Of a DNA stretch of 64,000 nucleotides, positions 1 to 62,671 are shown in pieces; the stretch's first letter is position 1, and every line of letters starts with the position of its first letter. The translations under genes were made by a program, and so were the position numbers. The DNA lies in contig OX424570.1 in assembly GCA_949152475.1 (NCBI GenBank), positions 8,916,181-8,980,180 on the forward strand. Direction: 5' to 3'. This DNA is from Terebella lapidaria (taxonomy: Eukaryota > Annelida > Polychaeta > Terebellida > Terebellidae). Below the pieces are notes generated by a model, which saw nothing but the letters and a program-made list of their open reading frames with translations, did no database searches and was not told the DNA's origin.

Positions 1-3000
1 GAGGATCGAGTGTTCCAGTGGTGGGTTGTTCTGTACGGTATGTGCTTGTGGGTGGCTTGTCGTTTTGTGTACTTTCTGGCAAGGTGCTAGTTTCTTGAAA
101 TTCTGATATGTAGAAAATGCAGAATAAGGGTGGTGAAGGCACATGCATGTTTAGTGCTATGTTGCGTGTGTGTCATTTACCTTTCATGCACAGAAAATGT
201 CGCCTGCTCCGACCACAGTCTTCAGCTCTCCAGTTGTTCTGTTCACCAGAGTTCTCCAGAGATACACACTGAGTGGGATCATCTCTTCTTGGTGTGGTTC
301 GCCAGAAGAAGAACCGCATCTTTTCTGATTCCTTGGAATCTAATTGGACAGATTTGCTAACTATTTCTGTTTGTACTGGTGGATATTCAGTTATTGCGTC
401 AAGGGGTTTTTGACCTACATCTCAGGTACAGGGCAAGAAATTACCCATCATAGCAGACTCACGCACATATTGTCAATTATTAAAGTTTCTGGACATGTCT
501 TATGTCTGCAAAATAGTATTTCTTCCATGCTTAGTCATACATGTTCACGTAACTGAATAAGGTACTGAAATTCTAAGTATTCTAACACAGTTGAATGAGT
601 ATGTTGATTCACGTCATCAACTGGTATCGTAATAAGTCAAACCAAACTAATACAATAGAGCCGCGGTATTTAAGTGGTTGATTATATTCTGAATAAGTAC
701 ATAGTTGTGGCATCAGAAAATATTCTCACCAATGACCCACTCCCAGGGATGACGGCCTATCCCGAGCCACATTCTCTGGTGAGCGAAAATCCGCATTTTC
801 ATGTTTATGGCTTCCCGCAAAGTGTCATTCAAGACATGTAGATAAGGCGTGTCTCCACCATACACCAGGTAGCAGTAGGTCTGCTGATCGTACCAGTTTC
901 CAGTAATGTCATGGATCACATAGCACATATCGTCAAACCACACTGACGTTTCTCCAGATAAACAAACTGCCAAATGACGAACCAATAATGCACTGATTTC
1001 AAAGTGTGGAGGATTGTTGTATGGGTTTGCTAATGATTATTACAAATGTACTATCATAATGGATGCCTGAAAGTGAACGGCGATAGTAAAGGGGAATGTA
1101 TGAATGAAAGTTCATAGCCTCATTCCCGTGCATCTGGGTTTTTTTTATGGAAATATCAGTTTCACTGCTAGAAAGAGCAAACACACCTGCATCATGTGAT
1201 TGGTACTGACACACTCTGCGGGCGTTGCTATCAATTTCATCACAGTTGTCGGACTGTAGAACGTCGGATTGTAGTTCGAGGAAGAGGCAGCTGACATAAG
1301 ATGGACCTCCCTCTGGGTCCAGAGGTGATGGAACTGTTTGTGGGTCATACATGTATGATTACCCTCGCCCCGACAGGGGGAGAGGGTATTGCATTTGGGT
1401 ATGTCCGTATGTTTGTTTGTTGCTTGCCGGAATCTATCGATTTCGGCAAGTATGTTGATTGGTTCGGTATGTCTGTCTGTCTGTTTGTTCGTTAGCGCTC
1501 TGTAGGCCACAGTTTTGGAAGGTTTGTCACTAACTTTTCACATTTGCTTCAGGATGACAGAGGACAGAACGCCAAGTGTTTTGACGATCACATGTCTTAC
1601 ACGTTCTGAGTAATAAGTGATAACATTATTTACTACATTTAACTCAATGTTAACATGAATCAGGGCAATATTGATCCTCGGGCAAAAGTAACGTTAATTT
1701 CGACCCTGTGGGCTAATTTGCTATCATAATAGTGCAAATTTGCACTTTGACCTAATTTTGACCGAAAATTGAACTTTGGCCTACTTTTTCAAAAATGACG
1801 GCAGGGACCTGAGATGTGTAGATGTGAACTCAGAATTGAAATCCGACCACTGGTTCCTTAATTATGGCACTAATTAGTTCATTAAAATAGGAAAGATGCC
1901 TGTATCTCGCTGAATATTGATCCTAGTTAAAAAAAAAAACGTTAATTTCGACCCTGTGGGCTAATTTGCTATCATAATAGTGCAAATTTGCACTTTGACC
2001 TAATTTTGACCGAAAATTGAACTTTGGCCTACTTTTTCAAAAATGACGACAGGGACCTGAGATGTGTAGATGTGAAGTCAGAATTGCAATCCGACCACTG
2101 GTTCCTTAATTATGGCACTAATATGGTCATTAAAATTGGAGAAATGCCTGTATCTCGCTAAATATTGATCCTAGTTGAAAAATAATGTTGATTTCGACTC
2201 TCTGGGCTGATTAACTATCAAAATAGTGCAAATTTTCACTTTGACCTAATTTGATCAAAAAATTAACTTTGGCCAACATTTTCAAAATTGACGGCAGGGA
2301 CCAGAGATGTGTAGATGTGAAGTCAGAATTGCAATCCGACCACTGGTTCCTTAATTATGACACTAATTACGTCAGTAAAATGGGAAAAATGCCTGTATTA
2401 GACGTGGAATCAATACCCAGTATCAAGTATTCCGAGCAAACAAAACAGGGTCCGTTATCCAATCTCATAGTCCGGGGACAGAAAGTCATATCAGGCATAC
2501 GAAGTGAGAGAAAACAAAAATGACAGGGAAACTCATGAACCCCCGTAAATGGCCATCAGGAGGTGAAATCAGGTGTTCCGGAAAGAGTGAGCATTTCCTG
2601 CCCCACTAGTGGCACCCGTCATGAATTCCCCAAAATTAACATGAAAATAGATCTAGTTGCATGGCAGACATGGATTTGCTGTATTTATCAACCAGATCAT
2701 GATGACGTCCATAGAATTTCTTAAACGCAGCGATAAGTCTTGGTAAAACATATCCTTGTCGTAGCAGTTTAGAGACTAGCTGGGCACTTCGATAGACAAA
2801 GTCCTCATATTTGCAACTAGCTCTGGAATAGCGTATAAGTTGAGAAACAAACACACCATATGCCGGTGACATAGGAATGTTGCTGCTTAGAAAAGGGAAA
2901 TTGACTATGGAAAAATTGAAATCATCACGTTTGTCATATAATCTAGTTGACAGGTTAGAATCATTATCAATCTCGCTAGATATTGATCCTAAGGCAAAAA

Positions 3001-8662: not shown

Positions 8663-11600
8663 CTACAAAACGTCTTTCATGTTGGCGTTGGCCTGTTTCG
8701 TTGGCACAACAAGAGCATAGACGTCCCAAGATGGCACGACTGTGTGGGTTGCCATGGCAGCTGGAGCCCTACCAGTTGCCATACCAACAGACCCCTCCCC
8801 CTCTGGTGAGGCCTCATCACCCTTACGTTCCGGCATGGCGTACACCGTCCCGCTATTTGCCACTTCATGTCGCGTGGCAACCCCGCTTCCTGACCCAGGA
8901 CTGCCTGTTGCCATGGCAACCATTGGGACTTGCAAGGCGCCATAGAGAGAGTTATCCACGCAAACGTCATCCTGATCGCTAGGATCAATATGGGAACTAC
9001 CTGGGTCCGTCATTGAGTATGGAGAGTCGGGTGATCTTTGTTCTGTTCTTGACTTTTTGTTCTTGCGTTTTCTGTGGATTTAGGAAATGGATCATATTTG
9101 TCAAATTTGAGTAATTTCACTGCTATAGGGCCTACATCGTTTTCTTTCAGTACTACGAACAGATACAGATAATTAGCAAGGCTAGCAATATCCCGAGGAT
9201 TTACCTGATTACCAAGACGACAACAATAATCACGACGATGACCACAACACCGACAGGGACCACAACAGCTACAACTGGAAGTAAGAAGACATGTAAATTT
9301 GATGCTCACTAATCTGGACATCCTGTCATGGACATATTTTCACGGACTACATGGGAACGATCTACTGAATATGCTCGTTCAGTTACAAATACAAAACACG
9401 CTGTACCGAATGAACAGGTATCAGATGAACTCACCGATGTTGTTGAAGCCTGATCCAGGTTGGGTCTGTGAGAGATCAGCTATTGTGATTGGATCGAGTG
9501 GTGTTTCAGTGATGAGCTGGTCTGTACTGCGAGTAATTCTTGGTTGTTGGTCGTTTTGCGTATTGTCTGGTGAAGTGCTAGTTTCTGGATATTCTGGTGC
9601 TCAACAAATACACAATAACGGTCGTGAAGGCACCTGTATGTTTTTGTTTTACGTCAATGTCTAATACATGTACATGTGTATGTGCCACCTACCCTTCATA
9701 CACAGAAAGTGTCGTCTCCACCGACCACAGTCCTCAGCTATCCAGTTGTTCTGATCACCAGAGTTCTCAAGAGATACACACTGAGTGGGATCATCTCTTG
9801 TTGGTGCGCCTCGCCAGAAGAAGAACCGCATTCTTTCTGCTGAATTCTCAGAATCTAAAAAGAAATTGTTCCCTCACATATAGAGTTCAAATAGCCCTAA
9901 CTAAAATACTAGTATACCTGCATGAAAATATTTCCATCATACACCACAGTGGATATCTAAACAATATATTCCATGATATATAAATAATGTATGTTGAATG
10001 TAATTTGACATTTCACATGGCACGTGAAAGGAAAGATGTGCACCAAGGAATCGATTAAATGTAATCTCACCGAGCACCCACTCCCAGGGATGACGATCTA
10101 TTCCGAGCCACATTCTCATGCGTATAAAGTCTTCCATTTCATAATTTATTTTCCCCTGCAGTGTGTCATTCCTGACATGTAGATACGGTACGTCTCCATG
10201 GTAATTCAGGTAGCAGTACGTCTGGTGGTCGTACCAGTTTGCCGTCTTATTTTTCATTGAATAACACAAGCCCTCGAACTGCACTGTTCTCTCCTCAGAT
10301 GCGCAGGTTTCTGAAAAAGGATGTGGTGTCGTTTGTTTCGATGCATCAACCCTGGTTTCTACAAATGTCGGAGAATTGGGTTCTTGTCAATACCCATCAC
10401 TTCACTATTGAGCTCAATCACTGATATATTGGGAGATGAATACAGCTTCAAGGCTAATTACCGGACTTGACTGATGAAATAGGTAATGTTATTTTTGTAA
10501 TCGACAGAATGAAAACTGCGGATAAATGTATAATTGATAAATATTAAAAGGAATTACCTTTCCCTCACATTCGGCAATTCATACTTGTGTTACTGGGTTC
10601 GGCAGATCCACTTACCCGACAGTGGTTTCGAACCCAGGACCATACGAACTATAGTCCAACACTCAACCAAGTGAGCTAAAGGTCCTGGGTTCGAATCCCC
10701 TCTCGGGCAAGTGGATTTTTCCAAACCCTGCATCATTGGCGTCCAATGGGGAACTTGCCCACATCTCAGGGATGAGATTTCCGAAGAGGGGGGAGTATGT
10801 GCCAGGGCCCTTTCGCCAATTGGGGTTGGCCCAATTTGGTAGTCAGCATTCCCACTAGCTCGGCTAGTGGGACATCCCTTTAACTCACTTGGTAGAGTGT
10901 TGGACTACCGTTCTTGGGGTCCTGGGTTCGAATCCGCCTCGGGCAAGTTGATTTTTCCAGACTCTGCAACACTTACCTGAATGTTGAGGCTCGTACTGAC
11001 ATACTCGAGGGACGTCATTCCTTGTTTCATCACAATTGTCAGATTGATATGTTGGATCACTGAAGATCACAAACATACAGCTGGCGTAGGGTTCACCATC
11101 GCCAGGAGGATCTGGCATTGGAACTGTATTCAAAATGGAGTATTGCAATATTTACTTACAAGCTACACTGATAGTTCCATGAATACAGAAAAATAAGTTC
11201 ACAGAAGAATCATTGTTGCCAATTATCCTCCCTTAATCATCCTACGTGTACCAATCTAACACCTCCAATTCAACGGTATTTGATAATAACGAAAGACTAC
11301 CTTTTTGAATGAAAACATAGTTCGACCAAACATATAAGGGGCTGATGGTATTCAAAATAGTTTCTATACTGACCAAAAAAAAAACGCAAATTGGAAATTG
11401 GGCTATTTTTCTTTTTTGCATTATTGTAAAGGATATCTTTCGAAATATGCGAGACTTGTGACCGCCCATATAGTGCAAAGGAAATGTCGCGACACATTTA
11501 CTCGCTCCTTTGGAGACAAATTACGACGTGAAGTCTTATGAAGCCGATTACACCATCGTGACCACTTCAGATCAGCCACAAGGACGCCAGCCGGGAATTA

Positions 11601-13671
11601 GGACTGGAATTAATCAGGATTAGGACAGGATTAGCGAAAAGACAGGTTGTAACAGTCTGCAAGAGGGTGACTTTCACACACATAACCCCCACTGAGTTGT
11701 GGTGCCAACAGGGCCAAGGAAAATGGCTTTCCGTCATTGAATGGGAACCTGATATGGTGGAAAATATCGAACTGGTCAAACATGCATATTTACGAACAGA
11801 TCCAGACTTGCTATGCACACCGCCGTACAGGTGACCGGTATCATGGGTATGCTCACGCATGCGTACTGGCCTGACGTTATTGGATGGGGCTAGAAAGAAG
11901 TGTTTCTTGCAGGACATGACCTCAGTTCGCCGAGGACAGCCACAACTGAACGAAATTTGTCGTCCTGGGATCCATGGCCACACCAGATAGTAGCAATGAC
12001 TGACCATGTCATTCTCACTTTTGCCAGATATGGCTTTGTGTACTCCGTAAAGCTTAACGGGTGTGATGATTCCTCAATATTGCGAGTCATTGTTTGGATG
12101 CTTTAGATAGATACTTTATTGATCCTCAGTGGAAACTTGTTTTACAACTAAAAAGCACGGATATTTTAAAAACAAAGTAAAAGATACACACAGCACATGC
12201 ATACACACAACCAGCTATTACCACGGGAATGCATGCATGCTGCATTCACTGGTCATGTGTTACAAAATACAGGACATTACTCTTTATTTTAATGAAATTA
12301 TACAATAATATTGAAAAGTTGCGTTTCTTTTTTTGATCAGTATACTATCATCGTCAATCTTCACATGTTTGATTGTCCCTATCTGCTTATATTGCTTTGA
12401 TTGTCCCTATCTGCTTATATTGCGTCATGTTATTTTGCAATATTTCTTCATTCTGGAGACACAATTTTCCCGCCATCTTTGGCAATTTTTTTTTTTGGAA
12501 ATTCATCGGAATTTGAAAGGACAATCATTGATATAATAATTCCCAGCGCTATTAAATCGAAAGCATTCTTGCATGAATCTTTTTTGCCGATCATTACTTG
12601 ACCTCAGAAAAGTGGCAATGCTTTTAAGCTGAGCCAATCGCATACTTTCTCTTTGTGTACTGAGGAAACACATGTTTGGTCCTTTATTAAGGGAAACCTC
12701 ACGCACATAATTGTCTTATAATCGAATATAAACCCTCAGAAACACACTCTCCAAAACGATTCAACAGGGAGCATTCCTTTCTTGGAAAACAATACACGTG
12801 TTTAGTGTAAATGTTGCAAGTACATAATTCGGAGTATATTTTATTAGAATTGTGAATATATCCGAATATTTTTTTTCGTGTGTGGATATGCCTAATATAA
12901 ATCAGCCAAAGTGATCACGTCGCAATGCTTGTTCCCATAAATAAAATACGTCATATAATGTTTATTCAGTGCCCTAATTTATACTTTCCCTAATCTATGT
13001 GAGCCAGTGTCTTTGGATAAACTGTTTGGTTGGGCTTTGTATTTATTGTAAAATTTTGTTATTGGCATCATCAAAATCTGACTCTATTGGTGGTAATTGA
13101 TTGGTGGTAATAGATTGAATAGATTATTCAAATCCGTCCATGGATTCGGTCTTGGATTATGAATTTGTCTGTGTGTCGGTATCTATTTCTAGTTTTATAG
13201 CTTGATTGGAGATTTGTACTCACACGTAATCCCATCCCTGTATCTCCACTCATTGACCGCACTCCTCCGTCCTGCCACCCAGACTCTGTCAGAGTCCCCA
13301 GACGTATCCAGATTGTTTATGAGCTCTCTGGTTCTATTTTGTGTGTCTACATCCTTGATGGTCGCCAGAGTTGTTCCGTTTGATTCACACGCCGTCTTGG
13401 CATCGGTCCAGTTCAGGCCGGTATCCAATGAAGTCTCCCATAGATACAGACACGGGGTGGTGCTACAGTTATTACCAATCAGCTGGTGCTCGGTCGTTAC
13501 CATGATAACTACACCTGGTTAAATAAGTCAAGAGAATGAAATTGATCCTAACCTGTGATAACCAGAACGTGTTAGGATTGATCTAATTGGGTGGATTAAT
13601 CAGATTTTGAGTATGCAGTGGTAAAACATACCCAATACCCAGAAGACGGCCCAGTATATTCTCTCCAGCAT
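8663..13671 (-). CDS. Gene B: dual-CTLD type I membrane receptor, tail type 1 (complete)
   Basis: Eight coding exons: 13632..13671 signal peptide (M-L-E-R-I-Y-W-A-V-F-W), 13224..13514 CTLD-1a, 10977..11123 CTLD-1b, 10071..10310 CTLD-2a, 9693..9854 CTLD-2b, 9435..9593 stalk, 9205..9274 transmembrane, 8663..9071 tail and stop. They sum to 1518 bases, or 505 residues, with no internal stop. CTLD-1 has C-L-Y-L-W...VWVAGRRS and then Q-S-D-N-C-D-E; CTLD-2 has W-Y-D-H-Q-T-Y-C-Y, M-W-L-G-I-D-R-H-P-W-E-W and N-N-W-I-A-E-D-C. The stalk is Thr/Ser/Pro-rich. The membrane exon reads V-V-A-V-V-V-P-V-G-V-V-V-I-V-V-I-I and is followed by basic R-K-R-K. The tail has tyrosines in S-P-Y-S-M, S-L-Y-G-A, V-Y-A-M-P and V-Y-A-L-V. 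The protein is inferred to sit at the cell surface with tail inside; ligand and signalling partner are unknown. Confidence 0.85.
10596..10968. repeat. tRNA-like SINE fragments in opposite orientation
   Basis: Polymerase III-like box B strings GGTTCGAA occur at about 10687 and 10925 (+) and, reversed, at about 10626. A box A-like TTGGTAGAGTGTTGG occurs at about 10888, and its reverse-strand relative near 10665. Both halves share GGTCCTGGGTTCGAA and GGGCAAGT. They read as tRNA-derived repeats, not tRNA genes, because no cloverleaf closes. The right fragment ends within about 15 bases of the CTLD-1b splice donor of gene B. Confidence 0.6.
11369..12340 (+). mobile_element. Degenerate Tc1/mariner-like DNA transposon
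   Basis: Left end CTGACCAAAAAAAAAACGCA and right end TTGCGTTTCTTTTTTTGATC plus AG form inverted termini, flanked on both sides by TA (11367-11368, 12341-12342). The matching intron of gene F (52315-52345) reads straight through as an empty site. TA duplication and termini fit Tc1/mariner. A + strand frame with broken coding sense (L-W-C-Q-Q-G...K-W-L-S-V) faintly resembles the Tc1 transposase core, but stops interrupt it. It sits in the CTLD-1 intron of gene B. Confidence 0.7.
13005..13130 (+). repeat. Degenerate fragment of the 364-bp repeat family
   Basis: Contains AGTGTCTTTGGAT, GGCTTTGTATTTATTG and ATTGGCATCATCAAAATCTG in the same order as the 364-bp unit at 58738-60642, with substitutions and a short deletion. 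Lies in the CTLD-1 intron of gene B. Confidence 0.75.
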
Positions 13672-14553: not shown

Positions 14554-17500
14554 TCATTGCAGTTTATCATACAAATTTGGTGTCTCCACAGTGTTCACGT
14601 ACACACTCGGGGCTTCGTACGTATTGGTGCCCTCTTGATGACCTGGGAGTCCCGTGCGGGAAATCCCCACGTCCTCGTACTGTATGACGTCATTGGCTGG
14701 AGACGAGATTGTGAGATTTCCTGTAGATCCTTGGTCGATGACGTCTGTATTTACACGGGTATGATCCTGTTCCATCCCTGTATTTTCATAATCTCTTGGG
14801 CCAGAGAGTTGAACAGTTTGACCAGCCTTACGAGATTTTCTGGACAAGTAATAGAAGTACCGAAAATTTGAAGAAACAAAGAATATTATACGTACATGCA
14901 TTCGTCTTTACATATATAATTCTGTATGTAAAATGTATTTCCGAGATCTCCTAGGCAATGACATAAGTACCGAAAATCCAGACAAACAAAGAACATATAT
15001 TTTTCTCTGCACGCATACTGGATGTAAATTGTATTTCCATGTGTTGCATAACAATATTAATGAACGATATATTTAAAATTTTTCAAACATATTTACCGAA
15101 CAAGGATGATAACGAAAACCACCACAACACCGACCACTATTGTGACCGACACTGCCACAGTCACAGCTGTAAATATTGGTGTATGGACATCATACCTATG
15201 GTTTAATGCTATGTTTATGGTGAAGAAACGCCGAATTATTGTTGATTCCATATCAAGTAACAACTCGCACAATGAATTGAACCCATAATTATAAAAAAAA
15301 TCTACTATCAATATGTATAACCAAAAATCAGAAGGAACCAAAAATTATACGATGAAAACAAAAACATCGAATCCGAATATGACGCCCACAAAATTTCCAA
15401 TTATACCAACACATTTAAGGCCCACTTCAGTACCACAATTGGGATAATCTAATGATTACGGTGCTTCGTGTACAAATACAAAACATACGATGTCAATGTG
15501 GATAACTACAGGTATCAGATGAACTCACTGGTGACAGGGAAGCCTGATCCAGGTTCAGTGTTGGTGTCAGAAGTAGCTGTAATGATGGGATTGGATGGTG
15601 CTCCAGTAGTGGACTGGTCTGTACTGTGGGTACTTCTCGTTAGTTGGTCGCTCTGTGTACTGTCTGGTGAGCTGCTAGCTTCTGGAAATTCAGATGTTCA
15701 ACAAATGCACACTGAATGTGTTGCAGGCACATTTGTATTTATGTTTCACGCAATATCTAATGCATGTGCTTGTGCCACGTACCCTCCATGCATAGAAAGT
15801 GTCGCATCCGCCGGAAACAGTCTTCAGCTACCCAGTTGTTCTGTTCACCAGAGTTCTCAAGAGACACGCATTCTCTGGGATATTCCCATATTGGTGCGCG
15901 TCGCCAGAAGAAGAATGGCATCCTTTCAGAGTTCTCGGAATCTAGTGATCGGTATGTATTTATTTACTGTCAGTTTGTGCCAAGATATTTTAAGTAATAT
16001 CCGCCCTTATAGAAAGGAAAACCATATAAAATAAACTGGTATATCACTTATATATTCAAAATATTCAATGGGAACTCGGAATGATGCAGTTTTTACCATT
16101 GTGTTTATCAGAGACCCATTCCCAGGTGTGACGGTTTATTCCTAGCCACATTCTTTTGTGTCTGGAACTCTGATGGAATGTAAGTATCAATCAATTACCA
16201 CCAATAGTCAGATTTTGATTATGCCAAAAACAAACGTGAAATAGAACATTTCGGAATAGAAACAAAGCCCGACCAAATAGTTTATCCACAGACACACTGG
16301 CGTCATCAGGGGCAGACAGTGTGTTAAATGTAGTTGTTTTTTTACTGTACACCTGATGGAATTAGTATACAACTGCCCAACAACCTATGAAAACAATTTA
16401 GAAATCTGAAACAACCCCCATGGAATAGATATATGACAAGTACATAAGTACCTAATCACAAGCCAGAAGGCTACTGAGTTGATGGTATCCTCGGGGACAG
16501 ATTCAACGTCCGCCAGCAGTGACACCGACTCAGTGGTATGAATGTAAGTATCAATCAATTACCACCAATAGTCAGATTTTGATTATGCCAAAAACAAACG
16601 TAAAATAGAACATAATGGAACTCCATTGTCATGTTGATGGCTTCCCGCAAAGTATCATTCATGACGTGTAGATAAGGTGTGTCACCACCATACTCCAGGT
16701 AGCAGTATGTCTGTTGGTCGTACCAGTTTCCGTTAATGTCGTAGACCACGTAGCACAGATCGTCAAACCACACTGACGTTTCTCCAGATAAACAAGAAAC
16801 TGCCAAATGACGAACAAATAACACACTGATTTCAAAGTGTGGAGGGGTGTTGTATGGGTTTGCTAATGAATATTACAAATGTACTATGGATGCCTGAAAG
16901 TGAACAGCGATAGTAAAGGGAATGTATGAACGAAAGTTCATAGCCTCTTTCCCGTGCATCTGGGGTTTGTTGATTGTAGTATCAGTTTCGCTGCTAGAAT
17001 GAGCAAACACACCTGCATCTTGTGATTGGTACTGACACACCCTGCGGGCGTTGCTATCGATTTCATCACAGTTATCGGACTGTAGAGCGCCATTTTTGAG
17101 TTCGAGGAAAAGGCAGCTGACATATGACTGACGTCCCTCTGGGTCCAGAGGTGATGGAACTATTTGTGGGTCATACAACTATGATAATTATATGCGTTTC
17201 AGATTGGTTACATTCAGTTTGAGTATTTCGTGTAATGAGGAATGTAGGACTGTAAACACCATTACACGTCCATACGGATATGTATATAGAGTTCACATTG
17301 ATACTGAAACAAATATATACCCACATTGAGTGCCGTTCCTATACCGCCAGACACTGTCATCACTCCTCCGTCCTGCCACCCAGACTACCGCAGACATTCC
17401 TAAATTTTTGATAATCTCCCGGGTCCTGTTCTGTGTCTCTATGTCACGGATGGTCGCCAGACTTGTCCCAATTGATTCGCAAGCTTCCTTGGCACCAGTC

Positions 17501-17765
17501 CAGTTTAGGCGGGAATCCCTGGTAGTCCTCCAGAGATACACACACGAGGTTGTGCTACAGTTAGTCGCAACCAGCTGGGGGTCAGCCGATGTCATGACAA
17601 CTACACCTGGGAATGCAATGAAGAGAATGACATCAATCATTATCCGATCCTGGCATGAGATCGAAATAAACTGAGTTTGATATTTATTTTAAATAACTTT
17701 TGAACATGTATTGGTATAAACATACCTAATACCCATGAAGCTGTCCAGTATATTGTTTCCAGCAT
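14554..17765 (-). pseudogene. Gene C: dual-CTLD receptor, tail type 2, exon interrupted by insertion
   Basis: Exons: 17726..17765 signal peptide, 17325..17606 CTLD-1a, 17013..17159 CTLD-1b, CTLD-2a split as 16624..16799 and 16097..16170, 15783..15941 CTLD-2b, 15529..15681 stalk, 15097..15166 transmembrane, 14554..14839 tail. CTLD-2a breaks off after R-E-A-I-N-M-T-M-E at a 445-base insertion flanked by TGGAACTC. Removing it with one flank copy leaves 250 bases, two short of a multiple of three, and the usual donor has become CTGATAAA (a GTAAAA lies 12 bases later). The insert reads to a stop. All other exons are open. The tail has five tyrosines, including I-Q-Y-E-D-V and V-Y-V-N-T. It is probably a null allele or pseudogene; an intact allele could exist elsewhere. 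Confidence 0.7.
16171..16615 (-). mobile_element. 1.2 units of the 364-bp repeat inserted in an exon of gene C
   Basis: Flanked by TGGAACTC on both sides (16163-16170 and 16616-16623), an 8-base target duplication. The insert holds one full unit plus a partial second, joined at GGTATGAATGTAAGTATC just as in the 58.7-60.6 kb array. The orientation is opposite to that array. A non-integer number of units within one target duplication suggests insertion of an already tandem or circular form. Confidence 0.8.
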
Positions 17766-21264: not shown

Positions 21265-21437
21265 ACATTTCATTTCAATCCTTACAGAAGTATTTTGTAC
21301 ACTGGGAATCATAATGATTGCCCTAATGTATTTCACGACATTATTGTTATGATCACAGCACAGCATAAATACATAGAACAAATTGGTGACGCTATGATTC
21401 TCATGGTGACATGATGACACGACCATGAAATACTTAC

Positions 21438-28200: not shown

Positions 28201-28306
28201 CTTTTGACACTGTCAATATTTAGCCTCTGTCTTGAAGTGTTCTAGGAGTTTACAGCCCCCAGCCCCCATCATGGAAGAACAAGTATAAGTCGCGCCCGCG
28301 ACAATT

Positions 28307-44026: not shown

Positions 44027-46003
44027 TAGACGTGGAATCAATACCCAGTATCAAGTATTCCGAGCAAACAAAACAGGGTCCGTTATCCAATCTCATAGTC
44101 CGGGGACAGAAAGTCATATCAGGCATACGAAGTGAGAGAAAACAAAAATGACAGGGAAACTCATGAACCCCCGTAAATGGCCATCAGGAGGTGAAATCAG
44201 GTGTTCCGGAAAGAGTGAGCATTTCCTGCCCCACTAGTGGCACCCGTCATGAATTCCCCAAAATTAACATGAAAATAGATCTAGTTGCATGGCAGACATG
44301 GATTTGCTGTATTTATCAACCAGATCATGATGACGTCCATAGAATTTCTTAAACGCAGCGATAAGTCTTGGTAAAACATATCCTTGTCGTAGCAGTTTAG
44401 AGACTAGCTGGGCACTTCGATAGACAAAGTCCTCATATTTGCAACTAGCTCTGGAATAGCGTATAAGTTGAGAAACAAACACACCATATGCCGGTGACAT
44501 AGGAATGTTGCTGCTTAGAAAAGGGAAATTGACTATGGAAAAATTGAAATCATCACGTTTGTCATATAATCTAGTTGACAGGTTAGAATCATTATCAATC
44601 TCCAACCTCAGGTCTAGATAGTTGGAAAAATTAGCGGATTCTGTAGTATCCTTAATTTCAAGTTCCTTAGGATATATGACATCCAAATAATCACCAAACT
44701 TGGGATTATTTAGCGACAATACATCATCTATGTATCGGAAAGTGAAATTAAAATTACATGTTAGTTTCTTAGAACCTCCTCTTTGTAAATGTTGGATAAA
44801 ATCTGATTCATATGAGTATAAAAACAGGTCTGCCAATAATGGTGCACAGTTTGTACCCATGGGAATACCAATAGTTTGTTGAAATATTCGACCACCAAAT
44901 TCCACAAAAATATTATCAATCAGAAAATTAACCATATTTACCACATCTATTTCAGTATATTTGTATGGGGCATCAGAGTCGCCTTTAACAAAATAAGCGG
45001 TATTATATTTAACTACAATATAGTGGTACCGACGTTGTCCCTTTTTAGAGAAAAATGAATTATTGATTATTTTTTTAAGCTGAGATTTCAGTTCAGAATG
45101 AGGTATAGTTGTGTACAAAGTGGAGAAATCAAATGTTTTGATAGACGTTACTTTTGAAAGTGTGTGCGCATGTAGATATTCCAATAAAGATTTGGAATTT
45201 TTTAATAGCCACATTTGGTTTATACCACTTCTAGAATAGATGGTTTCAGAGTACTTTTGGAGACCCTGTTTAATTTTAGACAATATAGTAGTTAATATTT
45301 TAGAAAGGGCTTTGGTAGAACATGATGCTGAACCTGAAATATATCTTTGTTTGTGTGGATTTTTGTGCAACTTTGGGATCCAATATAAGTTCGGTAGATT
45401 AGAATCTTTACATGAGGTAGTAATACCAAACGAATGCAATACAGACAAATGATTTGATAAGATATCCTGTTTGGGCACGGTAATGGCTTGGTATGTACTA
45501 TTGGGATTAGTATTGTTGGCAATACCCAGTTCGTCAAACAGGCACTGTATATAGTATGCTTTACAAACAAAAACAACATTATTAGAAGCTTTATCTGCAG
45601 GGACAATGACGAACCTTTCTTGAAGTTTCAACAAACTATTAGTAACCACGGGATCATTGAAGACAGAGCTATATTTAGTACTAACTGACTTTGACAAAAC
45701 ATTGATGCGTTTGTTTACCAATGACCTAATCTGTTTGACCCATTCTGACAGAGAATCAGTTTCTGCCTTTTCTCGCTTTGTCCATTTTCTGGCATGCTCC
45801 TCAACTGCATCCATGATTAACTTAAAATTGTATCTCCATGAAAACGACGTGGGCTCTCTATATTTGGGACCTTTGGACAAAATGTCTTTCAATGATTCAT
45901 TCTCCACTATATTGAGGTCGCCTGAAATAACATGCCCAACTGGATCGTGTATGAACGGAGAGTTAATGCAAGTGCAGGAGGGTGGTATATTTCACCCTCC
46001 TGT
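44027..46003 (-). mobile_element. Penelope-like retroelement, reverse transcriptase ORF and 3' end
   Basis: The ORF runs from the frame opening near 46003 to the stop at 44264; the first Met is at 45907, but conserved-looking sequence continues upstream (H-D-P-V-G-H-V-I-S-G-D-L-N-I-V), so the true start is further 5' and lost or spliced. Reverse transcriptase motifs: F-D-F-S-T-L-Y-T-T-I-P (A), G-I-P-M-G-T-N-C-A-P-L (B), F-R-Y-I-D-D-V-L (C), plus the K-G-P-K-Y-R-E-P and V-P-A-D-K blocks seen in animal Penelope-like proteins. No GIY-YIG endonuclease follows; the ORF ends in L-D-L-F-S-C. The 5' edge lies in short CACCCTCCTGTATATTT duplications (45990-46030). At least 549 codons are open with no frameshift, so activity was recent. 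The 3' end is repeated at 2399-2974. Confidence 0.85.
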
Positions 46004-50202: not shown

Positions 50203-53200
50203 CTACAATACGTCTTTCATGTCGGCGCTGGTCTGTTTCGTTGGCACAACAAGAGCATAGACGTCTCCAGATGGCGCGACTGTGTGGGTTGTCTTGTCAG
50301 CTGGGGCCCTACCAACAGACACCTCCCCCGCAGATGAGGCCTTACCACTCTTACGTTCTGGCATGGCATATACCGCCCCACTATCTGCCACTTCATGTCG
50401 CGCGGCAACTGTGCCACTAGGGTCAGGACCGCCTATTGCCATGGCGACCATAGGGACTTCCGAGGCGCCGTAGAGGGAGTTATCTACGCAAACGTCTTCC
50501 TGGTCGACAGGGGGTGGGCTGTACTCTCCGTATGGGGTAATAGTGTCTCCATGGGAACCATCTGGCTCTGCCATTGAGTATGGCGAGTCGGACAATCTTT
50601 GCTCCATCCTTGACTTATTGTTGCGTTTTCTGTGGAATTAGCGAAGGGATCATATTTGTCAAATTTGAGTCATTTCACTGGTATAGGGCCTACATCTTTT
50701 TCGGTCATTACTACGCACATATGCAGTTAATTGGCAAGGCTAGCAATATCCCGAGGATTTACCTGATTACCAAGACGACAACAATAATCACGACGATGAC
50801 CACAACACCGACAGGGACCACAACAGCTACAACTGGAAGTAAGAAGACATGTAAATTTGATGCTCACTAATCTGGATATCCTGCCACGGACATATTATCA
50901 CGCACTTCATGGGAATGATCTACTAAACATGCTCGTTCAGATACTAATACAAAACACCCTGTACTGGATGAAGAGGTACTTGATGAACTCACTGCTGACA
51001 GGGAAGCCTGATCCAGGTTGGGTCTGTGAGACATCAGTTGTTGTGATGGGATCAAGTGTTGTTCCAGTGGGCTGGTCTGTAACGGTAGTAATTTTTGGTG
51101 GCTGGTCGTTTTGCGTATTGTCTGGTGAGGTGCTAGTTTCTGGCATTTCTGGTGTTCAACAAACGCACAATTCGAGTGGGAAGGCACATGCATGTTTAAT
51201 ATGTGATACGTCGATGTCTAATAACATGATTGTGTGTACCACCTATGCACAGGAAGTGTCGTCTCTGTCGACGACAGTCCTCAGCTATCCAGTTTTTCTG
51301 ATCACCAGAGTTCTCCAGAGATACACATTGATTGAGGTCATCTCTTGTTGGTGCGCTTTTCCAGAAGAAGAACCGCATCCTTTCCGCTGAGCTCTCTGAA
51401 TCTAACAAGAAATTGTTCCCACACATATAGGGTTCAAATAGCCCTAGCTAGAATACTATTATACAGACATGAATACTAAATATTCAACTAATGTATGTGA
51501 AATTTGCTTTTTCATATTTGACATTTCACATATGGAAATCAAAGCTGTGCACCAAAATAGGAATCAAATACATGTAATCTCACCAGACACCCACTCCCAG
51601 GGATGACGATCTATTCCAAGCCACATTCTCATGCGTATAAAATCTTTCATTTCATTGTTTATTTTCCCCAGCAGTGCATCATTCCTAACATTTATATAGG
51701 GCGTGTCTCCACCGTAATTCAGGTAGCAGTACGTCTGTTGGTCATACCAGTTTGCCGTCTTATTGTTCATCGAATAACACAAGCCCTCGAACTGCACTGT
51801 TCTCTCTTCTGATCCACAGGTCTCTGAATTGGGAAACCGCAACGTTTGTTGTATATGTGCAATTGATTTACTATGACATTTTCAAACGAATTAATTTTTC
51901 CTCCATATTCGACAATCGATTTAATATTTACCTGAATGTTGAGGTTCGTACTGACACACTCGAGGAGCTTTATTATCAGTTTCGTCACAATTGTCAGATT
52001 GATACGTTGGGTCATTGAAGATCACAAACATACAACTGGCATACACTCCACCACCGTCAGGACGTTCTGGCTGTGGAACTGTTTGAAATGGAGTAATGCA
52101 ATATTAACTTACAAGTTACACTAATAGTTTCATGAATACAGAAAAATAAGTTCACAGAAGAATCTTTGTTGCCACTTATCCTCCCCTGATCATCCTACGT
52201 GTGCCAATCTAACACCTCCAGTTCAACAGTAACAAAAGAATACATTTTGAAATGGAAAATAGTCCGACCAAAAATATATTTAAATTAACACCGACGCCAT
52301 CAGGAGCTAATGGTGTGTAAAATAGATTTCACTATCACCAATCTTCACATGTTTGATTGCCCCTACCTACTTGTATTTTGAACAAAAGATTACCACGGGA
52401 ATGCATGCAGCCTGAGCGACGCGGAGCGTCTGAGATGGCTGTCATTCAACCTCGGGACGGAAATCGTTTGGACATCTTTTCAACTAATAAATCAAAATTT
52501 CCCACAATTGTACCTTCTAGGCCCCATCTATATACCGAGAGGACATAGGGGATACATATTTGACAAACAATTAATGACTTTATCACTGAAATATCCCAAC
52601 TTGAAAACGCGAACCAGATTTCGACAAGTTCTTGGCCGGGCCATGGGTTTATCCATTTTCCCAATAGTATGACATCGAATTCGCTTGGTGGCGCCACAAC
52701 TCGATCTCAGATAATGAGAAGTGGCGCCACCAAGTGAATTGCGAGGTCAATACAGCCGGAAAAATGGATGCGCCCATGAGATGTGTCAAGTTGTCACAAT
52801 CTGGTTCGCGTTTTCAAGTTGGGATATTTCAGTGATAAAGTCATTGATTGTTTGTCAAATATGTATCCCCTATGTCCTCTCGGTATATAGATGGGGCCTA
52901 GAAGGTACATTTGTGGAAAATTTTGATTTATTAGTTGAAAAGATGTCCAAACGATTTCCGTCCCGAGGGTGAATGACAGCCATCTCAGACGCTCCGCGTC
53001 GCTCAGGCTGTATATGCTGCATCATGAAGGGCATCGAAACGTGATTTGAAACATCACGTTATATTGCGTCATTCTGGGAATTTTTCCGTCATTTTTTTTT
53101 TTTTGGGGGGGGGGGGGGGGAGGGGGGGGAATTCGTTGGAAATTGATAGAACAATCATTGATATATTCCCAGCGATAAGAATCGAAAGCATTTTTCCATT

Positions 53201-54086
53201 AATCTTGTTTGCCGTTCGGACGATTTTGATAGCCTGTGTTTCTTGGTATTGGGATCATCACCTTGACCTCAGAAAAGTGACAATGTTTTTAAGCTGATTC
53301 AAAAACATACTTTCTCTTTGTGTACTGAGGAAACACATGTTCGGTCCTATATCAAGGCTAACACCACAGACATATTTGTTTTATAATCGAATATAAACCC
53401 TCAAAAACACACTCTCAAACACGTTTCAACAGGTGGCATTCCTTTCTTGGAAAAAAATAAAGTTTAACGTGTTAATTGTAAATGTTGTTAGTACAGAATT
53501 TGGAGTATTTTTCATTACATATGAGAAAGAATTGTGAATATAGTCTAAATCGTGGCCATGATTGTTCCCGGAAATATAAAAATTCACCATAAAAACGTTC
53601 ATGCATTGCCCTAATTTATAGCTTGATTGGAGATTTGTACTCACACGTAGTCCCGTTCCTGTATCTCCACTCATTGACCGCACTCCTCCGTCCTGCCACC
53701 CACACTCTGTTATTGTCGTTGGACGTACTTAGGTTTTTGATTATCTCCCAGATTCTCTCCTGTGTCTCTATGTTACGGATGGCTGCCAGTGTTGTTCCGC
53801 TGGATTCACATGCGAGCTTGGCATCCATCCAGTTCAGGCGGGAATTCATTGAAGTCTCCCAGAGATACAGACATGAGGTACTGGTACAGTCAGTCGCAAT
53901 CACCTGGGGGTCAGCCATCGTTATGACAACTACACCTGGATGAATAAATTAAGAGAATCGATTTATTCGATCCTAACGTGTGATAAACAAAGCGTATTAG
54001 AATAGATTTTTGATCAGATTTTGAAAATGCAGTGGTAAAAACATACCTGAGACCCAGAAAACTGTCCAGCTTATTGTTGCCAGCAT
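50203..54086 (-). CDS. Gene F: dual-CTLD type I membrane receptor, tail type 1 (complete)
   Basis: Exons: 54047..54086 signal peptide (M-L-A-T-I-S-W; in-frame ATG also at 54089), 53645..53935 CTLD-1a, 51932..52078 CTLD-1b, 51584..51823 CTLD-2a, 51243..51401 CTLD-2b, 50993..51148 stalk, 50763..50832 transmembrane, 50203..50629 tail. The total of 1530 bases gives 509 residues without a stop. CTLD-1: C-L-Y-L-W, VWVAGRRSAVNEW and Y-Q-S-D-N-C-D-E. CTLD-2: W-Y-D-Q-Q-T-Y-C-Y, M-W-L-G-I-D-R-H-P-W-E-W, K-N-W-I-A-E-D-C. CTLD-2b ends one codon early at ATAG/GTGGTA, a shifted donor. The membrane exon is nearly identical to gene B's. Tail tyrosines lie in S-P-Y-S-M, T-P-Y-G-E-Y, S-L-Y-G-A, V-Y-A-M-P and V-Y-A-L-V, and the tail ends M-K-D-V-L. 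Closest paralogue is gene B. The CTLD-1 intron holds a hairpin element. Confidence 0.86.
52408..53010. mobile_element. 603-bp near-palindromic element with about 290-base arms
   Basis: CAGCCTGAGCGACGCGGAGC at the left mirrors GCTCCGCGTCGCTCAGGCTG at the right. Arms continue inward to TGGTGGCGCCAC and GTGGCGCCACCA around an about 22-base centre. Both arms keep the same 83-codon frame reading outward, with a few differences near the centre. The matching intron of gene B (12220-12262) reads ACCACGGGAATGCATGCATG without the element. The target duplication is uncertain (flanks GCATG and TGTATATGC). Confidence 0.8.
53092..53131. repeat. T-tract followed by G-tract
   Basis: A run of Ts then about 16 Gs, an A and more Gs. 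Homopolymer block just outside the hairpin element; sequencing or assembly length error is likely. Confidence 0.7.
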
Positions 54087-56791: not shown

Positions 56792-59700
56792 TCATTGCAG
56801 TTTATCGTAGACATTTGGTGTCTCCACAGTGTTCACGTACACACTGGGGGCTTCGTATGTATTGGTGCCCTCTGGGTGACTGGGTGGTCCCGTGTGGGAA
56901 ATCCCCACGTCCTCGTACTGTATGACGTCATTAGCTACAGACGAGATGGTGGGATTCCCTGTAGAACCCTGGTTGATGACGTCTGTATTTACACGGTTTT
57001 GATCCAGTTCCACTCCTGTATTTTCATATTGCCTTGGATCAGAGAGCTGTTCAGTTTGACCACCCTTACGAGATCTCCTGGGCAGTGATAAAAGTACCAA
57101 AAACTCAAACAAACAAAGAATGCACGTACATGTAATTGTCTCGGCATGCATACTGTATGTAAATTGTATTTTCATGTGTTTCATGGCAGTAATTATAAAC
57201 GATATATTGAAACTTTTGTGAACATATTTACCGGACAAGAACGGCGATGATAACCACCACAACACCAACCAATACGATAACAGACACTGCCACAGCCACA
57301 GCTGTAAATATTGGAGTATGGATATTATACCTACATGTATGTTTCTATGCTATATTAGACAACGTCGAGGTATAGTTTATTCCATTTTGATAAACAGTTC
57401 CCACAAGAAAAACTTGAACCAGTAATTATCAAAAAGAAATTGGTAGTTTGTATAATACTGACTAAATGAACGAAAAATTATCACTATGAGGATGACCACT
57501 TCTATTTATATCAAGACATGGACACACTTAAGGGGGGATCTGATGAATATGGTGCTTCATATACAAAGTGAAAACATAATGACATACATCTGGACCACAG
57601 GTACTTAATGAACTCACTAATGAAAGGGAAGCCTGATCCAGGTTGAGTCTGAGTACCAGGATTCGCTGCAGGTGTCCTAGTGGTGGGCTGGTCTGTACCA
57701 TGAGTACTTTTGCTAATTTCTTGAAATTCTGGTATGTAAGGAATGCACAATAAGGGTGATGAAGGCACATGTATTTTTATGTTTGACTTTGAGGTCTGAT
57801 GTGTATATAGGAAATGCACAAGAAGGGTTGTGAAGGTATTTGCATGTTTTGTTTGAATATTTTACATCGAGGTTTATTACATGTGCGTGTGTTTATTCAA
57901 CCTACCCTTCATACACAGAAAGTGTCTTCTCCGCCGACCACAGTCCTCAGGTATCCAGTTGTTCTGATCACCAGAGTTCCCCAGAGATATACACTGACCG
58001 GGATCGTCTCTCGTTGGTGCATTTCGCCAGAAAAAGAACCGCATCCTTTCCTCCTCGTTCAAGTCTAATCATGTATATTGGATAAAATATATGCTCAAAA
58101 AGTAGCAACCCACATCTGATCAGTCCCATAACACACTCAAAAACAAAATTATAGAGTCAATGGGCCCAAGTATCATACACTGCGCCTTAATACTACTAGT
58201 CCACTAAATTAATGCCATTTAATCCGTCTGTCACATTTTAAATCATCATTGAATATAGAGGAAGGCGCAGGATATGATATTTGTGCCCTTAAATTCACAA
58301 TACATGTCACCAGTTCCCCCTTGGGGTTTTATGAACATAAGTCAATTTTGAAATGTACTCTTTTCAAAATCGAGTGGTGTAAAATTTCTACAATACAATT
58401 GCAGATTGCAGAGTTTCACCTTGTAGCTTGATTTGTAAATAATAAAATATGTAGACACCCGCACTGTATGCATGCCTTTCTCAGATGAAACAGGTACAAT
58501 GTTGCTGTAACTCACGCGGTAATGTATATTGATACGTTTGAAATTTTAGAGAATACTGCAACTCTTCCAAAGCTCGTATAAAGTTGAGCTTGGAAATATA
58601 AATAACACAAATTATATTTTCAATGGGACGTTTTGACGACAGTTCTAAAGATCTGATTTCCACCATGAACGGGACACTACTGTATTAGTGGAATTCGCTC
58701 GGACCAATCTCTCGCCAGTAGTATGCAGACAAACATTTTCTATTGCAAAATGTTGTATTTTACGTTTGTTATTGGCATCATCAAAATCTGATTGTATTGG
58801 TGGTAATAGATTGATACTTACATTCATACCACTGAGTCGGTGTCACTGCTGGCGGACGTTAAATCTGTCCCCGAGGATACCATCAACTCAGTAGCCTTCT
58901 GGCTTGTGATTGGGTACTTTTGTACTTGTCATGTATCTATTCCATGGGGTTAGTTTCGGATTTCTAAATTATTTCGATAGGTTGTTGGGTAGTTGTATAC
59001 TAATTCCATCAGGTGTACAGTAGAAACAACTACATTTAATACACTGTCTGCCCCTGACGACGCCAGTGTGTCTTTGGATGAACTATTTGGTCGGGCTTTG
59101 TTTCTATTGCAAAATGTTGTATTTTACGTTTGTTATTGGCATCATCAAAATCTGATTGTATTGGTGGTAATAGATTGATACTTACATTCATACCACTGAG
59201 TCGGTGTCACTGCTGGCGGACGTTAAATCTGTCCCCGAGGATACCATCAACTCAGTAGCCTTCTGGCTTGTGATTGGGTACTTTTGTACTTGTCATGTAT
59301 CTATTCCATGGGGTTAGTTTCGGATTTCTAAATTATTTCGATAGGTTGTTGGGTAGTTGTATACTAATTCCATCAGGTGTACAGTAGAAACAACTACATT
59401 TAATACACTGTCTGCCCCTGACGACGCCAGTGTGTCTTTGGATGAACTATTTGGTCGGGCTTTGTTTCTATTGCAAAATGTTGTATTTTACGTTTGTTAT
59501 TGGCATCATCAAAATCTGATTGTATTGGTGGTAATAGATTGATACTTACATTCATACCACTGAGTCGGTGTCACTGCTGGCGGACGTTAAATCTGTCCCC
59601 GAGGATACCATCAACTCAGTAGCCTTCTGGCTTGTGATTGGGTACTTTTGTACTTGTCATGTATCTATTGCATGGGGTTAGTTTCGGATTTCTAAATTAT

Positions 59701-62671
59701 TTCGATAGGTTGTTGGGTAGTTGTATACTAATTCCATCAGGTGTACAGTAGAAACAACTACATTTAATACACTGTCTGCCCCTGACGACGCCAGTGTGTC
59801 TTTGGATGAACTATTTGGTCGGGCTTTGTTTCTATTGCAAAATGTTGTATTTTACGTTTGTTATTGGCATCATCAAAATCTGATTGTATTGGTGGTAATA
59901 GATTGATACTTACATTCATACCACTGAGTCGGTGTCACTGCTGGCGGACGTTAAATCTGTCCCCGAGGATACCATCAACTCAGTAGCCTTCTGGCTTGTG
60001 ATTGGGTACTTTTGTACTTGTCATGTATCTATTCCATGGGGTTAGTTTCGGATTTCTAAATTATTTCGATAGGTTGTTGGGTAGTTGTATACTAATTCCA
60101 TCAGGTGTACAGTAGAAACAACTACATTTAATACACTGTCTGCCCCTGACGACGCCAGTGTGTCTTTGGATGAACTATTTGGTCGGGCTTTGTTTCTATT
60201 GCAAAATGTTGTATTTTACGTTTGTTATTGGCATCATCAAAATCTGATTGTATTGGTGGTAATAGATTGATACTTACATTCATACCACTGAGTCGGTGTC
60301 ACTGCTGGCGGACGTTAAATCTGTCCCCGAGGATACCATCAACTCAGTAGCCTTCTGGCTTGTGATTGGGTACTTTTGTACTTGTCATGTATCTATTCCA
60401 TGGGGTTAGTTTCGGATTTCTAAATTATTTCGATAGGTTGTTGGGTAGTTGTATACTAATTCCATCAGGTGTACAGTAGAAACAACTACATTTAATACAC
60501 TGTCTGCCCCTGACGACGCCAGTGTGTCTTTGGATGAACTATTTGGTCGGGCTTTGTTTCTATTGCAAAATGTTGTATTTTACGTTTGTTATTGGCATCA
60601 TCAAAATCTGATTGTATTGGTGGTAATAGATTGATACTTACAATCATATGCAGGAGCAGCGATAATCGAGTGCAATGTCCTCGGTGCTCTTCACTATAAA
60701 ATTGGCTATTCACAGGATAACAGTCTTACCAGAGATCCACTCCCACGGGTGGCGATCTACTCCTAGCCACATCCTCTTTGTATTATGATGATATGCCATT
60801 TTCTCCCCTATGTTGTTCAACAATGTAGTGTTCCTGATATGTAGATAAGGTGTGTTGCCACCATACTCCAGGTAGCAGAAGGTTTGTTGATCGTACCAAT
60901 CCCCAGTAGCGTTGCTTACATCATAACAGAAACCCTCAAACAACACCGATCCCACATCACAGGATCCAAAGACACCTGCTGATTTACACACAAACGATGA
61001 CGATAAATTGCAGTTAGGCGTGTGAAAGAAGTACGTGTATATCTACTAAACCTCTCTGCCACCAAGATCCCAAAAGCGTTTTTTTTTAAATAGCTAACTT
61101 ACTAAATAATTTCTACAAATTAAAATTGTACATATACATGATAATCTGATAATAGTTCTGACAATGTGAGAATTAATCATCATAATCATTCTAAACTATG
61201 CTCTGATTTTTCTAACTTGTTTACACTGTTTTTGGCTGATATTGCTGTGATGCTAAAAGGTATCGTTCTATAACTTGACATACTTCACCTAGGAATCAAA
61301 TGGCAATTTTTCAGACTTCTATCGCGAAAATTGAAAAAGTTGGCAATCTTCCCGAACGTTAAATTCAGCACTGTCATTTCATTTCTGAGTCCCGCATACA
61401 ATTTTGTGCCAATACAGATGGTGCAATCTTTCGAAATCAACTTTTTTATATATAGAAAACGACCCAATGGATCTTCTGGTCCAAAATTATAAGAATACTT
61501 TCGATCCTAATGGATTCAAACAGCAATAAATCTTCGAAAGTGATCAGATCCCGTTTTGACCTGAAACTTAACATATGGGTCGATTGCGAACTTCTTCAAT
61601 TTTTGTTATAGAAGTCTGAATCCCAGTTGAAGTATGCTAAGCTATAGAACGATAACATTCAGCATCACGAAAATATCAACATAAAACTGGTGTAAACATG
61701 TTAGAAAAATCAGAGTATACACTCCCAAAAAATATGCCTCATATCATACATATATGTGATTTGTATACATAAGTGTGAAATTGATGCCCACAGACACCAC
61801 CCCCCCCCCCCCTGCCCCCAGTGTGTGTGTGTGTGTGTGGGGGGGGGGGGGGGTAACAAATGTTTAATATAATATTGTTATTCCCGAACACACCCATTCA
61901 TTGCCATTGCACTATTGGAATTTCGGTCGTATCGCCCCATTGTTATTCCCCTAACATGACCTTGCTCAAAGTGCCATTGATATCACTTTCTACTCATCTC
62001 AGCAACTCATTAAACTTAAACATTGACTTACCAAACGTATAGCTCACACTCGGAACATCTTGGTTATATAACTAAGTCTTCTGTCTTCAACGAGGCTTAG
62101 AATGGAGAACTAAAACCCAACTAAGAGTATCGTTAGAGCTACATATCCTATCTGAGACGTCTGGACAATCAGCAACTTGAGCAATGTCAGAGCCAAGTTA
62201 GGAGATCAACAATGGAGCGATAATACCGAATTTACAATAGTGCAACGGGTGCTATCTCTACGGAGCCCTAAGGGGACACATCTGTGGCTGATGTGGTATG
62301 TTTTTGGAATAGAACGACGGTCAATCAAATGTCTAAATCCGATGTCATCAGCGTATATCAGTGCATGTGTTGAGATTAACATACATTGACTTAAACAGAA
62401 TATATATCTGAAAATATTGACGCATAATGCCGAATCAATGAGTTTCTAACCCCATCACGGGAACAAGATGGATTGATAAAGAAAATGAATCGGATAAGCT
62501 GTTGTGTGAGTGTTCAGATACCTGAGACACCAGGCAGGTATTGGCACACTCGCTGAGCGGCGTTCTGTGTCTCATCGCAGTTGTCAGATTCGGTGCTCTG
62601 CTGGTGATCAAGGTCCATCAAGACACAACTCTCGTATGTTTCTCCGTCTATGTTGTCTTCAGGTGTTCTAA
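56792..62671 (-). CDS. Gene G: dual-CTLD receptor, ITIM-type tail, 5' end outside window
   Basis: Exons: 62522..62671 CTLD-1b, 60730..60975 CTLD-2a, 57906..58064 CTLD-2b, 57618..57728 stalk, 57232..57301 transmembrane, 56792..57077 tail. The signal and CTLD-1a exons must lie beyond base 64000. All junctions keep frame. CTLD-1b ends E-S-D-N-C-D-E...R-V-C-Q-Y. CTLD-2a reads F-E-G-F-C-Y-D, W-Y-D-Q-Q-T-F-C-Y and M-W-L-G-V-D-R-H-P-W-E-W, and is the most diverged of the set. CTLD-2b: N-N-W-I-P-E-D-C. The stalk is the shortest (37 residues). The tail has Q-Y-E-N-T, I-Q-Y-E-D-V, T-Y-E-A-P, V-Y-V-N-T and V-Y-D-K-L, six tyrosines in all. Its CTLD-2 intron holds a 364-bp tandem array, and another copy of that repeat touches the CTLD-1b acceptor. 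Confidence 0.82.
58163..58287. mobile_element. 125-bp MITE, copy 3 (opposite orientation)
   Basis: GGCCCAAGTATCATACACTG at the left; the right end is worn (GATATGATATTTGTGCC). The core reads as the reverse complement of the copy at 32052-32176. Lies in an intron of gene G. Confidence 0.8.
58738..60642 (+). repeat. 364-bp tandem array, about 5.2 nearly identical units
   Basis: TCATACCACTGAGTCGGTGT recurs every 364 bases (58824, 59188, 59552, 59916, 60280). Units differ at single bases only (for example ATTGCATGG at 59669 for ATTCCATGG). Each unit holds a 61-codon frame with a hydrophobic end and, on the other strand, a stop-terminated Ser/Thr-rich frame followed by GTAAGT. These are probably by-products of repetition. 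The array lies in gene G's CTLD-2 intron. Confidence 0.92.
60976..62521. other. Gene G intron between CTLD-2a and CTLD-1b, no gene seen
   Basis: AT-rich sequence. 61265-61500 and 61510-61720 contain related strings in opposite orientation (ATAGAACGATA, TAGAAAAATCAG), so a worn inverted repeat is possible. C and G tracts lie at 61800-61853. Confidence 0.5.
61800..61853. repeat. C-tract, GT repeat and G-tract in mirror arrangement
   Basis: About 13 Cs (61800-61812), TGCCCCCA, nine GT units (61821-61838) and about 15 Gs (61839-61853). The C and G tracts could pair as a hairpin or form a quadruplex. Lengths in assemblies are unreliable. Confidence 0.75.

Follow-up and report, generated by a model that had tools for sequence, protein, structure and literature searches.

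The window, by which we mean the whole 64,000-nucleotide stretch of Terebella lapidaria DNA that was analysed (C17:8916181-8980180; the assembly searched comprises 761.6 Mb), harbors seven units on the minus strand, genes A to G, which were located by tblastn with exon seeds and share an identical exon order. As judged from the splice sites, a unit consists of eight exons that encode a signal sequence, a first CTLD divided between exons 1a and 1b, a second CTLD divided between exons 2a and 2b, a stalk, a membrane stretch and a tail. In the readable units the intron between the membrane and the tail exon is in phase 2, while every other intron is in phase 1. This bears out a sequence-only reading that had described seven minus-strand genes on one eight-exon plan, the exon order being kept in seven of seven and the phases being the same wherever they can be read. 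Exon 1 contributes 13 residues that form a single hydrophobic stretch with the start of 1a, and the two together are read as a predicted signal peptide; this exon was found in each of A to F, the six units for which the window covers the 5' end. The tails fall into two classes, termed t1 (A, B, D and F) and t2 (C, E and G). Within the window the features are placed as follows:

1-4671, minus strand: gene A, partial, with a t1 tail located outside the window; signal 4671-4632, 1a 4495-4214, 1b 1333-1187, 2a 966-730, 2b 339-181, stalk starting from about 100.
8663-13671, minus strand: gene B, complete, t1 tail, 505 aa, Pfam Lectin_C E 1.6e-13 over two stretches; signal 13671-13632, 1a 13514-13224, 1b 11123-10977, 2a 10310-10071, 2b 9854-9693, stalk 9593-9435, membrane 9274-9205, tail 9071-8663.
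14554-17765, minus strand: gene C, t2 tail, exon 2a interrupted; signal 17765-17726, 1a 17606-17325, 1b 17159-17013, 2a about 16799-16097 including the insertion, 2b 15941-15783, stalk 15681-15529, membrane 15166-15097, tail 14839-14554.
16176-16613, no strand assigned: 438-bp insertion of a dispersed repeat in exon 2a of gene C, with TTCCAT on both sides, shared with unit C' about 94 kb away.
26096-32797, minus strand: gene D, t1 tail, damaged; signal 32797-32758, 1a 32651-32370, 1b 31957-31787, 2a 31438-31199, 2b 27409-27251, stalk 27155-26997, membrane 26818-26749, tail 26537-26096.
34496-37039, minus strand: gene E, complete, t2 tail, 456 aa, Pfam Lectin_C E 1.1e-15 over two stretches; signal 37039-37000, 1a 36880-36599, 1b 36459-36313, 2a 36103-35864, 2b 35723-35565, stalk 35465-35319, membrane 35000-34931, tail 34781-34496.
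50203-54086, minus strand: gene F, complete, t1 tail, 509 aa, Pfam Lectin_C E 3.2e-14 over two stretches; signal 54086-54047, 1a 53935-53645, 1b 52078-51932, 2a 51823-51584, 2b 51401-51243, stalk 51148-50993, membrane 50832-50763, tail 50629-50203.
56792-62671, minus strand: gene G, partial, t2 tail, signal and 1a exons absent from the window; 1b 62671-62522, 2a 60975-60730, 2b 58064-57906, stalk 57728-57618, membrane 57301-57232, tail 57077-56792.

As to completeness, the earlier description stands for B, E and F, the only genes that are whole and open within the window, but has to be qualified for the others, since the window edges truncate A and G, exon 2a of C is split and D has an early stop. 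Gene A is truncated at window base 1, and its stalk, membrane and t1 tail exons lie at C17:8915273-8916280. For gene G, candidate signal and 1a exons were found at C17:8988206-8988647, approximately 8 kb past the window end, the candidate 1a requiring small in-frame shifts to fit its splice sites. The damage to gene D comprises the early stop in 1a (TAA at 32628-32626) and a Cys-to-Tyr exchange in 1b; this gene also has a GC donor after the membrane exon. In gene C, a GT and an AG near the ends of the insert would by eye permit an in-frame splice, so that the gene may not be dead. Nine units of the family were checked for splice sites, which are exactly placed and canonical in A, B, B', E and F, while in G, K, L and M some sites fit only with in-frame shifts of up to 12 nt, which is a looser test.

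Pfam Lectin_C is matched above the curated cut-off in B, E and F, with two stretches per protein; the partial protein of gene G gave no Lectin_C match in Pfam (E 1). The best solved relatives by sequence of the extracellular part of E include snaclecs, NKG2-D, OLR1 and CD69, at modest E-values from 5.7e-6. Classical sugar-binding C-type lectins carry EPN or QPD, and WND motifs. The extracellular parts of B, E and F contain none of these three motifs and thus lack the classical sugar-binding signature. In B, D, E, F and G, the membrane stretch is free of charged residues up to its cytoplasmic end, and Rfam at its gathering thresholds returned no match. Elsewhere in the assembly, a small contig whose COX1 match contains 11 TGA codons reads, with table 5 (an invertebrate-type code), as ND3, ND2, COX1, COX2, ATP8 and COX3 in a single strand orientation, a gene order known from annelids, the names other than COX1 being assigned by eye; ARAGORN, with the bacterial code, detected no tRNA there.

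Several repeats and other elements lie in the same stretch. A repeat with a 364-bp unit occurs in exon 2a of gene C (16176-16613), in an intron of gene G (58737-60647), where it forms an almost perfect tandem array, and beside exon 1b of gene G (62676-63042); a genome search gave at least 185 matches on many contigs, with the best 40 of 2057 candidates scored. An open frame of 575 aa at 44264-45991 resembles by eye, and may be, a Penelope-type reverse transcriptase; 576 bases of its 3' part recur with 100% identity at 2399-2974, and the last kilobase of the window (63043-64000) reads like what may be a related GIY-YIG part. Two adjacent copies that are 87% alike, including a long array of 20-bp tandem units, occupy 18773-23719. 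An intron of gene D contains a 169-bp tandem repeat in seven copies (28411-29724), and between exons of gene F some 610 bases (52405-53013) form an inverted, self-complementary stretch that is 89% alike.

The genes of the window belong to a first cluster of 274 kb (C17:8896181-9170180) with 22 units, of which 21 have a tail (12 t1 and nine t2), and which includes B' and C', close copies of B and C at a distance of about 94 kb, and a unit, K, with a partial stalk match. Searching the genome with t1 returned 15 rows, counted as 14 copies, all at C17:8.915-9.217 Mb, while t2 gave nine close copies in the first cluster and 13 weak matches (E 0.005-0.43) at C17:9.63-9.90 Mb. At C17:9216050-9216900 (L070), two tandem t1-type tail frames lie downstream of a single CTLD2a exon (L065) and perhaps represent alternative tail exons or a local duplication. 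Taken in order, the 21 tails of the first cluster form 11 runs, compared with a mean of 11.28 in 20,000 shuffles, and the tail of gene A, just outside the window, is t1 like that of its neighbor B. The alternation of tails from B to G that had been noted earlier is therefore local to the window and not a property of the locus, and strict alternation as a rule was rejected.

Comparison of the t1 and t2 profiles revealed no similarity (E 0.37 and 0.74), in agreement with the claim of two unrelated tail types and speaking against t1 and t2 as versions of one tail. It is likewise unlikely that the tails are unrelated neighboring genes, which would have spoken against the earlier description, because, behind each extracellular part (head), the membrane and tail exons continue in phase, and the sites in A, B, B', E and F are canonical.

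Whether a head belongs to one tail class or the other can be read from separate trees of the exons, which were built without the near copies B' and C' and without exons that were not whole as a single match (15 rows for 1a, 16 for 1b, 18 for 2a, 15 for 2b, 17 for the stalk and 19 for the membrane exon). Tail type required five changes on the tree of 1a, four on 1b, four on 2a, six on 2b and four on the stalk (shuffled means 4.8-6.0), and as few were reached in 384-392, 135-148, 89-113, 447-455 and 44-51 of 500 shuffles, respectively. None of these extracellular exon trees departs from shuffled labels, the stalk coming nearest to a link with tail type. By contrast, tail type is a single change on the membrane exon tree (0 of 500 shuffles as low; SH-aLRT 100), indicating that the heads do not follow the tail type and that the membrane exon of the first cluster tracks the tail perfectly. 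The proposal that the extracellular halves are alike and the intracellular halves differ is reflected in the identities: exon 1a of F (t1) and M (t2) is 97% identical, with 80% in 1b, and the stalk of D (t1) is 94% and 95% identical to those of E and L (both t2), whereas membrane exons in the named cross-tail pairs reach 53-58%, and 50% for A and C. In six cross-tail pairs the similarity is lost over the initial 30-60 nt of the stalk-membrane intron, with mostly 77-100% in the stalk (F-L and B-O are lower in places) and mostly 25-70% more than 30 nt into the intron. Four same-tail pairs, namely B-F and D-J (100% in both), E-L (73-97%) and C-O (about 87-93%), regain or retain similarity towards the membrane exon.

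In a rival account, it was the tails that moved: membrane-plus-tail cassettes would repeatedly have been transferred as one block to heads already in place, instead of the heads being homogenised by gene conversion, with an identical functional outcome. Membrane and tail exons do travel as a unit, and in the dog CEACAMs membrane and cytoplasmic exons are reported to have been exchanged together, with gene conversion being proposed (PMC2110893). However, the heads are mosaic themselves, as F and M fall from 97% in 1a to 80% in 1b, B and L share 94% in 2b and 77% in 1a, and K and F, both t1, share 95% in the tail and 57% in 2a, which suggests patchy exchange inside the heads and leaves a movement of the tails rather than the heads a somewhat unlikely account.

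Both tail classes are long and contain several tyrosines each. In most t1 copies the tyrosines are found in PYS, LYGA, VYAMPE and [ED]VYAL, together with an MKDVL end, and the counterparts in a second cluster (see below) include IYAQPNK, GDIYAV and MKNVL. An ITAM is defined by the pattern YxxL/I-x(6-12)-YxxL/I in the tail. A full ITAM is found in none of the nine first-cluster t2 tails and in none of the 11 whole t1 tails; YxxI/L-x6-YxxL, which conforms to the ITAM consensus, occurs in ten of the 13 t2-type tails of the second cluster, the remaining three having YVNF. IQYEDV, an ITIM match, is present in nine of nine first-cluster t2 tails, and an ITIM-type match in two of the 11 whole t1 tails, each such count amounting to nearly a single observation because the copies are related. 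When t2 tails were shuffled (with seven of the 13 second-cluster tails used), about 0.4% matched the ITAM and about 18-20% the ITIM, and because of the latter figure the ITIM was rejected as proof of an inhibitory arm. SH2 genes are present in the genome (49 matches), some of them as close pairs on one strand.

The second cluster is located at C17:9.61-9.91 Mb, 0.7 Mb from the first, and is also marked by the CTLD2 search. Reading of its 13 weak t2 matches confirmed the same kind of tail, and the L030 gene comprises 1a, 1b, 2a and a t2 tail that has diverged, along with a candidate 2b. Each of the four minus-strand CTLD2 genes that lack t2 is followed just downstream by a t1-like tail of two exons, which overturned the suggestion from the t1 genome search that t1 is confined to the first cluster. 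Indeed, the t1 profiles of the first and second cluster match (E 6.9e-5, probability 63%, the second-cluster profile having been joined by eye). The design, with both tail classes, is thus repeated in part elsewhere in the genome. A third site, some 15 Mb away from the second cluster (L063 and L069, C17:25162780-25165540), carries the end of a t1-like tail along with a related CTLD2a exon.

A CTLD2a tree of both clusters contains 39 rows, of which 35 are labelled by tail (Q, L051, L057 and L064 are unlabelled). Tail type requires 11 changes on this tree (shuffled mean 11.9-12.0; 186-191 of 500 as low), where the second-cluster labels denote the nearest downstream tail and are less sure for L061 and L062, whose tails are about 14-16 kb off. 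Cluster membership requires two changes, at a point where the program warns of long branches meeting. The two tail classes therefore seem to be older than the separation of the clusters, or else to have been exchanged between them, while the heads seem, as far as these sequences indicate, to be homogenised within each cluster. Across tail classes, L058 (t1) is identical to L055 and L056 (t2) in 64 of 65 CTLD2 residues, both t2 copies having an in-frame TGA in that exon, and the next-best pairs are F-L (70 of 79 residues) and L054-L061 (67 of 76).

Eight units of the first cluster have all eight exons whole and stop-free (A, B, E, F, G, B', L and M), four per tail class, and at least 13 of the 22 (C, D, H, C', I, J, N, O, P, Q, R, S and T) have a stop, a split or an undetected exon, a count in which short signal exons can escape detection and T is truncated where the analysed sequence stops. 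This degree of damage, together with the repeats inserted among and inside the genes, is what a decaying tandem array would display, in which ordinary CTLD receptors were duplicated and recombined by accident, with tails exchanged under no pairing logic and with most copies becoming pseudogenes. We regard this account as improbable, since both tail classes persist in two clusters with their tyrosine motifs kept, five of the eight whole units have exact splice sites, and pooled dN/dS, calculated with damaged copies included except for B', C' and H, is 0.28-0.59 across all exon classes, with 0.37 for t1 tails and 0.43 for t2 tails. That haplotype copies set in tandem by the assembly produced apparent clusters and mixed heads and tails, as the near copies B' and C' might suggest, is very hard to credit, given that C' differs from C (1a protein 95% identical; a stop in 2b), that most other copies diverge far more and that the design recurs in the second cluster.

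On balance, we favor the reading that these genes encode an annelid family of two-CTLD type I receptors in which one recombining pool of heads is set on two membrane-plus-tail cassettes, convergent on the paired receptors of vertebrates. Clustered duplicates would exchange extracellular exons wherever homology permits, and gene conversion or unequal crossover would keep the heads alike across the tail classes, with the exchange halting near the stalk-membrane intron, where the t1 and t2 cassettes share no homology. The same kind of ligand might then trigger two outputs via tyrosine phosphorylation, such that the t2 tail, with IQYEDV and, in most second-cluster copies, YxxI/L-x6-YxxL, would signal through tandem-SH2 proteins of the Syk or SHP type, and the t1 tail, with its conserved VYAMPE, [ED]VYAL and MKDVL end, through other adaptors. 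Which of the two would be activating and which inhibitory is a guess, and the double-CTLD receptors may have an immune-type role. The paired-receptor reading put forward earlier is partly supported: the heads that do not follow tail type, the loss of similarity past the stalk and the presence of both tails in the second cluster speak for it, but the alternation and a scheme with a short charged partner do not hold, so that, as judged from the gene sequences, it now rests on exon linkage and not on alternation.

Vertebrate C-type lectin paired receptors are mostly type II proteins with one CTLD, whereas the worm receptors are type I with two CTLDs. Vertebrate paired receptors, both immunoglobulin-like and C-type-lectin-like, are described as having related extracellular parts, two kinds of intracellular part and clustered genes (PMC3533184). 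The worm units correspond to this definition in their similar extracellular domains and different intracellular parts, and in their clustering, with 22 units in 274 kb and a second cluster (PMC3533184). In the textbook pair, a short tail combined with a positively charged membrane residue marks the activating member and an ITIM the inhibitory one; the worm family differs in that both tails are long and the membrane stretch holds no charged residue in B, D, E, F or G (PMC3533184). The closest likeness is offered by dog CEACAM1 and CEACAM28, for which a nearly identical ligand-binding exon is reported on different tails, one with an ITIM and the other with an ITAM in its own tail, that is, similar heads wired to two signalling tails as proposed for t1 and t2 (PMC2110893). 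The dog proteins are, however, vertebrate receptors made of immunoglobulin domains with known cDNAs and expression, while the worm family consists of CTLDs and is predicted from genomic sequence (PMC2110893).

Among invertebrates, the fester co-receptors of Botryllus and the allorecognition genes of Hydractinia are stated to contain ITIM, ITAM or hemITAM motifs, which in Botryllus are swapped through alternative splicing (PMC12065747). The Botryllus co-receptors are built of immunoglobulin and sushi domains, by contrast with the CTLDs of the worm family, in which tails would be exchanged between genes (PMC12065747). Bivalves, which belong to a phylum related to the annelids, show a comparable, large lineage-specific expansion of C-type-lectin-like proteins, the abstract part of that report making no mention of two interchangeable tails (PMC10140915). 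A literature search over titles and the beginnings of abstracts, with most subscription papers outside its scope, returned no protostome paired receptor, and none among the annelid, ITAM and C-type lectin matches listed.

A wider proposal, which we put forward tentatively and consider rather doubtful as it stands, is that of a protostome paired-receptor complex, in which two ancient cassettes, one with an ITAM-type motif within the receptor, would share one continually homogenised pool of double-CTLD heads over two large clusters, as an invertebrate counterpart of the natural killer gene complex for defence or self-recognition. Receptors with shared heads and exchanged tails are best known in vertebrates, and ITIM and ITAM examples are described from one cnidarian and one tunicate (PMC12065747). 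If an annelid has a version built of two CTLDs, this would suggest that the wiring of one pool to two outputs, homogenised by recombination, arises repeatedly, and the family would offer a protostome setting for testing ideas about paired receptors.
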